Of a stretch of 64,000 nucleotides of DNA, positions 53,045 through 55,882 are shown piece by piece. The DNA is from Leishmania martiniquensis. Taxonomy: Eukaryota; Euglenozoa; Kinetoplastea; Trypanosomatida; Trypanosomatidae. The notes beneath the pieces were generated by a model that saw nothing but the letters and a program-made list of their open reading frames with translations, was not told the DNA's origin and ran no database searches. Position numbers and translations under genes: made by a program. The DNA lies in contig NC_090167.1 of the NCBI RefSeq assembly GCF_017916325.1, forward strand, positions 1,177,001 to 1,241,000, in the 5' to 3' direction. Position 1 is the stretch's first letter. The number at the start of each line of letters is the position of its first letter.

Positions 53045-55882
53045 ATGCCTGTGCGGGTGCTGTGCCTGCATGGCGCTCAGCAGACGCGGGAGATCTTCCA
53101 AAATCAGCTGAGCCGCTTTCAGGATGACCTCACCCACATTGCAGAGCTCGTGTTCCTGGAGGCACCGTATGTACTGCCGCTCATCACAGTGCAAGATGAC
53201 ATGCCCACGCGATCGTGGTGCAGCGTGGATGGCAAGGAAGACTACAGCGCTGGTGATGCGCTGGTGGCGTCGGCGATGCAGCCGGCGGGTCCGGGAACCG
53301 ACCTTGCATTCACCGTCATGCTTGGTTTCTCGCAGGGTGCTTCGATGATTTACCGATACCTATGGCTTCACGCGGCAGATGCCGCGGTCTCTGCGCAGCT
53401 GCGCGGTGTCATCGTAGCCGGCGCACAAGATCCACGCCGCATGTTCCCCGGTAACGGGCGCAGTACACCGTTTCAGTCCTCTACTCACAGCGCTGCGAGC
53501 TCCGCCGACGGGACTGCTATCTTTGGCTCAATGCCCTTTCTCCACGTCGTTGGCAAGAAGGACGCCATCGTGTCACCCGAGGAGAGTGCCGCCTTTGCGC
53601 AGGTGTGCAGCAGTGCTTCTCGTGTTCTCTTCCACGAGCACGCGCACACTATTCCTGCGCTGAAAGAAGTGCGCCAGGCGGTGCGGGAGGTCTGCCAGGC
53701 GGCCTCGATGAGCTCGGCCGAGATGACCGAGGTTCTCGAGGCCCGCGCAGAGGAGCTGGGAATGGTCTGCTCGATGTACGGGGAGGAGTGCATGCTGGAT
53801 CTCGGCAACAAGACCCTCGTGCGCATTCCACTTTTCACGGATGCGGAGTCTCTGCTGGCGTCCTCCTCTGCATCAGCGGGAGCGTCGCTGGAGGCTTCTG
53901 TGGTGCACGCGCTGATGCGCATCAAGCTTTGCTTCCGCGTGCCCTGGAGCTACCCGTCAATGCTGCCCAAGGTGGAGATCGCTGACGGCCCGACCTGGCA
54001 TTCCGTCAAGTATGAGCGCTGGGTAGCAGACATGATGGTGCGAACCTCGGCCTACCTTTCCGGCGAGCTGGGTGTCGGGACGGCCATGCTACTACCAGCC
54101 TACCTCTACGCTTCCGGGCTGGCGCAAGAGAAGGTGGACATCCTCATCGAGGTGTTGACCGACGAGGCGGGTGGCAACAGTGGCGCTCACGGCGATGATC
54201 GTGAAGCTGCAGTGCCGGAGGTGACTGGCCCATGGGCGGCAGAGGACGAGCTTCTCCGGAAGGCGTACACGGCTGAGGCGGAGACAAAAGCTGCCGAACT
54301 CCTCTTGGCGGAGTTAAAGCTCAGCCGTGATGGCCGTCCGCCAATCGCATACGGCGGCGAGGGTGATGACGGAGGGGCTGACGACGTGGCAGCGGAGCCT
54401 GAGGCCCCTGCGACTGCTGGCGGTGGGTCATGCACTCTGACAATCGGCTTGATCGGCAAGCCAAGCGCCGGTAAGAGCACTTTCTTCAACGCTGTCACAA
54501 ACCCGGCCAGTGAGAGCGACGCTGCGCGCGTCGCGGCCTTCCCTTTCACGACGATCGAACCGAATATTGGTGCTGGCCTCGCGCCTCTGTACTGTCCATG
54601 TGCGATGCTGCACGCGGCAGTCGGTGGTGTGGCGCCGCCCAGCGCCGCCTTCTCCTGCGCTCTCACTGGTGATCAGTGCGACGCAGCGTACGGCCACGTG
54701 CGTGCGCTTGGCAGCTGCCGCTTTCGACGACATCCGGTGAAGGTGAAGGATGTGGCCGGGCTCGTGAAAGGCGCCTACGAGGGCAAGGGCAAGGGCAATC
54801 AGTTCTTGAATGATTTATGTGATGCTGACGTGCTGGTGCACGTGGTCGACGGTGCGGCAGCGACGGAAGCGGACGGCACGGCGTGTGCTCCGGGCCATGG
54901 CTCCACGATGGAGGACATTGCCTGGGTGCGCTCAGAGGTGCACAGCTGGATCTACGACAACCTTCGAGCCAAGTGGGCGAGCCTCGTGCGACAGCCGAGA
55001 AAGCTTCGTACTATGTTCAGCGGCTATGGAAGCACCCCGACTTTTCTGGGTCGCGTACTGCGGCGGGTCGGCGTCGCTAATGAAGCTGCGCTGACAGCGA
55101 TCCTACGCACCTGGGGGCCGCGCGAGCTTCACGCGTTCGTAGCGCTCTACGTTCGTCTTCGCTTTCCAATGGTCGTGGCGCTGAACAAGGCAGACCTCCC
55201 CACTGCTGGTGGGTTTGCGGCTGCGTTGCGCCACGCCTACCCACACGAAGTCTTCGTGCCCATGACGGCGAGGACGGAATGGCTGGCGCTTCAACTGAGC
55301 CGCAGAGGCTACGTTGACTACACGCCCGGCACGACGTCGCTGGAAGTCAAGGTTGGACACGGCAGCGTGGCCGATTTGGACAAGGGCACTCGGGAGGAGC
55401 TGCACGATGTCATCTCCTTCTTCCGGTCCACCGTTGCATCAGAAGAGCATTCGCCGTCGCCCTCGCTGCTGCGAACCACCGGTGTGCAGGACGTGCTGGC
55501 TGCGGCGATGGCGGCTTGCGGGGCGGTCCTCGTGTACCCTGTTCGCGCTTTTCAGCCCGTCACCTCACTCGCCCACTGTCTGACGTTCAAGTTGGGCAGC
55601 TCTGCTGAGCGAGTGTTCGACGCACTTGTGCATCTGAAGCTGCTAGAGGGAAAGATGGTGCGTTTCGAGATGATCGACCTTGCTTACCTGAAGCAGCAGC
55701 TACTGCAGGAGCTTCTGGCGTCTCTGCCCACCATCTCATCGAAAGTGGGGGCAATGCTCATGCCAGCACAACAGCAGCGCGCGGCACTGCCAGCGAACGT
55801 GCGGACGCTGCGCAAGACAGAGGTGATCCGCTCTTCCGTGGTGCTGGTGCGCATTCTTTCCAACAAGCGCCAGCTTGCCTAG
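53045..55882 (+). CDS. FSH1 serine hydrolase - RWD - OBG-type GTPase (YGR210C-like) fusion
   Basis: A 945-aa protein with three domains. Residues 1 to about 220 form an FSH1-type alpha/beta hydrolase: VLCLHGAQQTREIF at the N-terminus, nucleophile elbow GFSQGAS (about 94), acid loop VGKKDAIVSPEES (about 169) and HEHAHTIP (about 197) as the histidine. Residues about 229-365 look like an RWD domain (RAEELGMVCSMYGEE, FRVPWSYPSMLPKVEI). From about 465 there is an OBG-like GTPase of the YGR210C/archaeal YchF branch: GKPSAGKSTFF, FPFTTIEPN, a Cys-rich insertion, DVAGLVKGAYEGKGKGNQFL and LNKADLP, ending in a TGS-like segment (LTFKLGSSAERVFDALVHL). OBG GTPases bind ribosomes. The frame is uninterrupted and all catalytic motifs are present, so a genuine fusion is likely. 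An in-frame ATG at 52748 would add 99 non-conserved residues. Confidence 0.9.
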   Translation: MPVRVLCLHGAQQTREIFQNQLSRFQDDLTHIAELVFLEAPYVLPLITVQDDMPTRSWCSVDGKEDYSAGDALVASAMQPAGPGTDLAFTVMLGFSQGASMIYRYLWLHAADAAVSAQLRGVIVAGAQDPRRMFPGNGRSTPFQSSTHSAASSADGTAIFGSMPFLHVVGKKDAIVSPEESAAFAQVCSSASRVLFHEHAHTIPALKEVRQAVREVCQAASMSSAEMTEVLEARAEELGMVCSMYGEECMLDLGNKTLVRIPLFTDAESLLASSSASAGASLEASVVHALMRIKLCFRVPWSYPSMLPKVEIADGPTWHSVKYERWVADMMVRTSAYLSGELGVGTAMLLPAYLYASGLAQEKVDILIEVLTDEAGGNSGAHGDDREAAVPEVTGPWAAEDELLRKAYTAEAETKAAELLLAELKLSRDGRPPIAYGGEGDDGGADDVAAEPEAPATAGGGSCTLTIGLIGKPSAGKSTFFNAVTNPASESDAARVAAFPFTTIEPNIGAGLAPLYCPCAMLHAAVGGVAPPSAAFSCALTGDQCDAAYGHVRALGSCRFRRHPVKVKDVAGLVKGAYEGKGKGNQFLNDLCDADVLVHVVDGAAATEADGTACAPGHGSTMEDIAWVRSEVHSWIYDNLRAKWASLVRQPRKLRTMFSGYGSTPTFLGRVLRRVGVANEAALTAILRTWGPRELHAFVALYVRLRFPMVVALNKADLPTAGGFAAALRHAYPHEVFVPMTARTEWLALQLSRRGYVDYTPGTTSLEVKVGHGSVADLDKGTREELHDVISFFRSTVASEEHSPSPSLLRTTGVQDVLAAAMAACGAVLVYPVRAFQPVTSLAHCLTFKLGSSAERVFDALVHLKLLEGKMVRFEMIDLAYLKQQLLQELLASLPTISSKVGAMLMPAQQQRAALPANVRTLRKTEVIRSSVVLVRILSNKRQLA

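Follow-up and report, generated by a model that had tools for sequence, protein, structure and literature searches.

A 64,000-nucleotide stretch of the Leishmania martiniquensis genome was analysed (contig NC_090167.1, positions 1,177,001 to 1,241,000 of the forward strand; hereafter the window, in whose numbering all positions are given), in which one gene encodes, on a single chain, a serine hydrolase of the FSH1 family, an RWD fold and a GTPase of the OBG/YGR210 type (Table 1). An earlier note, made from the letters of the sequence, had described this three-domain fusion as new and had read it as a translation-coupled hydrolase. Its account of the three domains and of the active sites stood, and the finding was borne out and is no product of chance; its statement of novelty has to be corrected, as the combination had been publicly annotated before. 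Since the same combination, with its catalytic residues kept, is found in distant single-celled eukaryotes, the fused protein is probably an old working unit of eukaryotes rather than a parasite oddity.

Domains and active sites of the fused protein

Table 1. Features of the fused gene and of the region upstream of it (positions in the window).
Feature	Positions	Strand	Basis
Region upstream of the frame, with polypyrimidine tracts at 52797-52821 and 53006-53029	52797..53029	+	Script scan; candidate spliced-leader signals
Whole coding sequence	53045..55882	+	945 residues and stop, single open frame; closest homologues align full-length; one genomic locus
FSH1 serine hydrolase domain	53051..53680	+	Residues 3-212; Pfam E 4.7e-32
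Nucleophile Ser96 in GFSQG	53330..53332	+	Ser in 112/112 filled rows of 120
Catalytic Asp173	53561..53563	+	Asp in 113/113 filled rows of 120
Catalytic His201	53645..53647	+	His in 112/112 filled rows of 120
RWD domain	53714..54178	+	Modelled at residues 224-378; sub-threshold Pfam core at 232-315
Linker helix between RWD and G domain	54248..54328	+	Residues 402-428; secondary structure of the model
OBG/YGR210-type G domain	54440..55354	+	Residues 466-770; Pfam; G1 GKPSAGKS, G3 DVAG, G4 NKAD
Cys-rich insertion between G1 and G3, C517-C545	54593..54679	+	Column counts of the alignment
YGR210-like_G4 domain	55178..55546	+	Residues 712-834; Pfam E 4.9e-18, 66.0 bits, over cut-off
TGS-like C-terminus	55520..55864	+	Residues 826-940; aligned to 1wxq through residue 940

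The frame is open without interruption for all of its codons, as the earlier note had said. Among the candidates scored in the genome of L. martiniquensis (32.3 Mb, 41 contigs), there was a single locus, and FSH1 and YGR210-like each gave one match. A homologue search with the whole protein, in which 7996 candidates (those with the most shared words) were scored, returned 187 homologues; the best 120 of the 187 were listed and aligned, and the row counts given here refer to that alignment. The nearest homologue among the matches listed is a protein of Leishmania sp. Namibia (81% identical).

The Pfam FSH1 model scores 111.8 bits against a cut-off of 21, and S96, D173 and H201 stand in register, with the Ser-Asp-His triad intact in all 111 homologue rows without a gap at any of these positions. 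The triad is complete, as previously proposed, and its retention in every filled row argues for an esterase under lasting constraint. The GFSQG motif, which also appears as in OVCA2 homologues, is found in 93 of 111 aligned rows. By sequence alone the domain gives weak esterase matches in the PDB (E 0.22), so the link to yeast FSH1 relies on Pfam and on structure. The predicted structure lies near acyl-protein thioesterases by fold, and these enzymes act on acyl-thioester substrates. Yeast FSH1 and human OVCA2, which are esterases standing alone whereas the Leishmania domain is fused to RWD and a GTPase, prefer long straight-chain alkyl esters (PMC7077851; for this and every other paper cited by PMC number the source is an excerpt). 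This preference would make an acyl ester or thioester the likeliest substrate of the fused hydrolase, and the peptidyl- or aminoacyl-ester suggested in the earlier note is left without direct support.

In the GTPase part, MMR_HSR1 matches residues 466-607 with 50.8 bits, over its cut-off. Eight positions (K477, S478, T503, D569, G572, N714, K715 and D717) are invariant in 120/120 rows, as are the NKxD (GTP type) and DxxG motifs, and L573, following DxxG, is kept in 119 of the 120. The G motifs and the Cys-rich insertion were correctly recognised, and the CxC of the insertion is present also in the yeast bait and in one archaeal relative. The TGS-like end, predicted in the same place, was recovered by structure (1wxq), with a low-confidence insertion around residues 890-920 of the model and no Pfam TGS match in the protein. 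A further structural match to the GTPase part is 8kie, YchF with the 50S subunit.

Models and motifs of related GTPases were compared with the protein as well. The best NCBIfam match, NF007171 (YchF-related putative GTPase; E 6e-57), is a model for prokaryotic proteins, and the score of 193.3 bits lies under its cut-off of 387. OLA1/YchF proteins, the ATP-type OBG members, carry NxxE instead of NKxD; membership is contradicted by the invariant NKxD and by a TIGR00092 score of 62.3 bits against a cut-off of 279.2. MMR_HSR1_Xtn (PF16897), which we take to be the marker of DRG (Rbg) GTPases, is absent from the Pfam hits of the protein, its two genomic matches (C35, C36) lying elsewhere. Lastly, LinJ.22.0640, termed a '50S ribosome-binding GTPase' in the excerpt of PMC6901541, was not taken for the same gene, its name placing it on another chromosome.

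The RWD assignment was upheld in fold and not in score. The Pfam RWD model gives 17.3 bits in the L. martiniquensis protein, below its cut-off of 22.8, and is over cut-off in several orthologues. A structure search with the model of residues 220-430 returned solved RWD domains in its top eight rows, the closest in fold being RNF25 (the best match), GCN2 and RWDD1. The region is described here as a predicted RWD fold and not as a Pfam-accepted member. Y303 is kept in 115 of 118 filled rows and P304 in 118 of 119, and both are kept together with E/D237 in 113 of 117. The mutation Y74A of Gcn2 abolishes Gcn1 binding (PMC8040806), and Y303 is a candidate counterpart of this tyrosine. The linker helix beyond the RWD is flanked on either side by low-confidence stretches of the model; the three domain folds themselves are predicted with confidence.

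Spread and descent of the fusion

All four Pfam domains (FSH1, RWD, MMR_HSR1 and YGR210-like_G4) are over cut-off in homologues from Porcisia, Bodo, Tribonema, Plasmodiophora, Durusdinium and Chytriomyces, and just over in an entry named Paraph..., probably Paraphysomonas. FSH1 and GTPase are present, with no RWD detected, in Diplonema P0048 and Phlyctochytrium P0123. In the diatoms Nitzschia and Seminavis, FSH1, RWD and MMR_HSR1 were recovered, and YGR210-like_G4 is either absent or below its cut-off. Entries from Nucella, Batillaria, Babylonia and Lineus (P0069, P0075, P0082 and P0086) have RWD and GTPase without FSH1; those of Babylonia and Lineus, P0082 and P0086, are isoform X2 models, for which a longer isoform is possible. 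The order FSH1, RWD region, GTPase is constant in the 111 aligned rows with FSH1, which span several eukaryotic supergroups. A second protein search (alignment A2) gave six proteins; three are chytrid fusion proteins, and the query is one of those three.

An invention of kinetoplastids only is ruled out by these distant homologues and by a Chlamydomonas record (PMC12711092), and the kinetoplastid or euglenozoan setting of the earlier note proved too narrow, the fusion reaching algae, diatoms, a dinoflagellate, Plasmodiophora and chytrids. A prokaryotic origin of the fusion was likewise rejected: 164 contig stretches were matched by a pattern, 140 encoded relatives, and in the best 80 of the 140 the matched query residues start at 452 at the least, within the GTPase part only (a result for the matched segments of those 80, the other 60 and the upstream DNA lying outside it).

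Such proteins were already on record. Homologue P0004 is named 'Serine hydrolase (FSH1)/50S ribosome-binding GTPase/GTPase of unknown function C-terminal', and for Chlamydomonas Cre12.g538200 a 2025 paper records FSH1, RWD, MMR_HSR1 and YGR210-like_G4 from JGI, terming the gene uncharacterised and conserved across algae and invertebrates (PMC12711092, excerpt). Its four Pfam domains, as recorded there, are those of the Leishmania protein. The claim that no protein joining the three had been described thus fails as regards annotation and holds for function: we found no functional study of the combination in the open-licence literature, where, among the matches listed, only PMC12711092 names it.

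The GTPase tree comprised 68 G domains (38 fused, 7 RWD-only, 8 yeast and 15 archaeal), with the RWD-only and yeast rows picked by hand and canonical YGR210C represented by yeasts only. The fused rows form one clade (96/96) together with a single RWD-only row, P0070, which is fragment-like and lacks most of the FSH1 domain. The six remaining RWD-only rows, from molluscs and a nemertean, are sister to that clade and share RWD and GTPase with the fused protein in entries without FSH1. Yeast YGR210C and the archaeal YGR210-type GTPases (1wxq), with neither RWD nor FSH1, fall outside, and a long branch (100/99) separates the fused and RWD-only rows from yeast YGR210C; on this topology the fused GTPase is filed as a divergent sister group of YGR210C. 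The Ygr210 gene is reported for yeast, with none in human, Arabidopsis, rice, C. merolae or E. coli (PMC4263083, excerpt).

The FSH1 tree (41 rows, three outside sequences only, bootstrap not settled and 14 of 38 inner branches open) regains most groups of the GTPase tree, namely kinetoplastids with Bodo, diplonemid-like, diatom and dinoflagellate-like rows, and chytrids with Plasmodiophora; Tribonema is unplaced, and P0042 and P0045 shift position. One fused GTPase clade, together with the recurrence of most groups in the FSH1 tree, argues that the unit was inherited together, and the FSH1 join seems to have arisen once, although proof is wanting. Chytrids pair with Plasmodiophora in both trees, and a tree of simple vertical descent with chytrids beside animals was rejected (p-AU 3.1e-05), a test weakened by the chytrid-animal group having been defined after the tree was seen. 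The grouping suggests either lateral transfer or loss with sparse or hidden sampling, and so complicates descent from an early eukaryote.

Two arrangements with additional domains were observed among the homologues. Chytriomyces hyalinus P0067 and P0122 carry an N-terminal 2H domain, like those of cyclic phosphodiesterases and 2'-5' RNA ligases, over residues 1 to about 165, before FSH1 (in P0067, CPDase matches with E 9.2e-17), and the chytrid P0123 gave no CPDase-like match; the extra domain could be a fourth module peculiar to the lineage, which would hint at RNA ends, or it could come from merged gene models. In Caenorhabditis auriculariae P0125, FSH1 stands behind an RBFA (ribosome-binding factor A) domain (34.8 bits against a cut-off of 34.7), possibly a second ribosome link of FSH1, or again a merged gene model.

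A possible role at the ribosome and its alternatives

To our knowledge, FSH1/OVCA2 esterases have no known natural substrate and YGR210-type GTPases no known role. That the two have stayed covalently joined in distant eukaryotes, with catalytic residues intact, hints strongly at one process served by both, and the link gives both families a direct test. The breadth of the fusion, the conservation of its active sites and its distance from YGR210C mark it as an orphan worth attention.

The reading we prefer, tentatively and at somewhat below even probability, is that of an enzyme of three modules, old among eukaryotes, which would correspond to Rbg2-Gir2 on one chain and in which a GTP-switched ribosome factor would carry an acyl-ester hydrolase. 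The YGR210-type G-TGS unit would bind GTP and a ribosomal site, as its OBG relatives suggest; the RWD would dock on a translation-surveillance scaffold, most likely GCN1; and the FSH1 esterase would thereby be placed beside a nascent chain, a tRNA or a ribosomal factor. There it would remove an ester- or thioester-linked acyl group, by analogy with FSH1/OVCA2 and, by fold, with acyl-protein thioesterases, and GTP hydrolysis would release the protein. If so, an esterase would be added to translation surveillance.

A translation-coupled hydrolase is plausible in view of the YGR210-type GTPase, the GCN2/RNF25/RWDD1-like RWD fold and a GCN1-type protein encoded in the genome. In yeast, Rbg2 is found with Gir2 on the leading ribosome of the Gcn1-bound disome, where the RWD of Gir2 contacts Gcn1 and connects Rbg2 to it on collided ribosomes (PMC8040806). 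Unlike the fusion, Rbg2-Gir2 and DRG2-RWDD1 are two separate proteins, of the DRG subfamily and with a DFRP domain, that include no esterase; the Leishmania genome keeps DRG-type and DFRP2-like genes of its own besides the fusion. The GCN1-type HEAT protein (PF23271, 39.4 bits; a frame of 2781 residues) owes its name to an EF3-like HEAT region and to the length of the frame: over the 1113 residues scanned, EF3 N-terminal HEAT scores 123.8 bits and HEAT_GCN1 40.1 bits. A GCN2-like RWD kinase, a DFRP2-like RWD protein (DFRP_C 27.2, just below the cut-off of 27.5) and two DRG-type GTPases are encoded as well. The presumed partner therefore exists, and the fusion would be an additional OBG-RWD unit rather than a replacement.

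Several observations weigh against this proposal. The placement at the ribosome is drawn from OBG relatives, and the binding partner of the RWD, the substrate cleaved and a coupling of GTPase to esterase are all inferred. Reported GCN1 binders are GCN2, IMPACT, RWDD1 and RNF14 (PMC10931611), and RNF25, the closest RWD by fold, is absent from that list in the excerpt. In 10/10 orthologues compared, divergence is faster in the RWD than in either the FSH1 or the G part (18% identity to Bodo, as against 34% for FSH1 and 60% for the G part), which would be unusual if the domain had a fixed partner; the C-terminal part evolves about as fast as the RWD, or faster, in most nearer orthologues. Pfam RWD was not detected in P0048 or P0123. 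Furthermore, the spacing from H201 to E237 ranges from 31 to 237 residues among the aligned homologues and that from RWD to P-loop from 52 to 164, which argues against rigid coupling. FSH1 is unmentioned in the main texts of two published Leishmania fluorophosphonate profiling studies, and in vivo labelling of the fused domain is unproven.

The strongest competitor, doubtful although deserving real weight, is a soluble esterase of lipids or metabolites that acts without any ribosome step and whose activity would depend on the GTP state or on a protein bound to the RWD, the G-TGS unit having been redeployed as a regulator. Taken alone, it leaves unexplained the lasting join to an RWD of GCN2/RWDD1 fold and to a GTPase with ribosome-binding relatives; the homologue search favours relatives with the same partner, and an exclusive pairing is not demonstrable from it. 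Improbable in our view is a fusion that merely equalises the amounts of modules acting independently: linker length is widely variable and the mollusc and nemertean entries retain RWD-GTPase without FSH1 (two of the four as isoform X2), but a join of convenience should have broken more often than the constant domain order across supergroups allows. A narrower version of the ribosome proposal, which we hold to be distinctly improbable, is a dedicated rescue esterase that GCN1 would recruit to collided ribosomes and whose FSH1 site the GTPase would gate, an ester bond (peptidyl-tRNA, acylated nascent chain or ester-linked modifier) being hydrolysed there; if true, translation quality control would have an ancient branch that many protists and algae retain and that the usual model organisms lack.

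A role in cilia or flagella, with a translation link that is ancestral only, is highly improbable, as pennate diatoms are without flagella and two of them, Nitzschia and Seminavis, carry the gene. The idea draws on Chlamydomonas lf5-2 (CC-4560), whose deletion removes Cre12.g538200, CDKL5 and one other gene, and in which CDKL5-GFP restores flagellar length and hardly beat frequency (PMC12711092, excerpt). Least of all, with a probability close to negligible, might two genes or two transcripts have been joined into one frame by artefact. Tracts with 17 pyrimidines in 18 bases occur upstream at 52584, 52797 and 53006 and next downstream at 56120, with none inside the frame at this criterion. The first AG downstream of the 53006-53029 tract, at 53079, does fall in the frame; a spliced-leader acceptor there would cost the start of the FSH1 domain, yet the closest homologues retain that part. 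The identical order recurs across many genomes and also among entries derived from transcriptomes, several of them labelled 'ORF type:complete', and the open frame, its conservation and the lack of internal tracts were the grounds on which the artefact was rejected.

Other genes of the window

Downstream on the same strand lies a gene for ribosomal protein L3 (58355-59785, +; Pfam E 9.4e-126). Trypanosomatid genes sit in polycistronic units, and this neighbourhood need not mean a common function. Elsewhere in the window, a frame of 1577 residues (44882-49615, +) gave no Pfam match at E<=0.001. A frame of 1020 residues (25706-28768, +) has a Roc/Ras-like GTPase domain (E 2.9e-13) and an IBR (half-RING) match below threshold (20.7 bits against a cut-off of 24.3), and is possibly a fusion of a GTPase with an E3 ligase.
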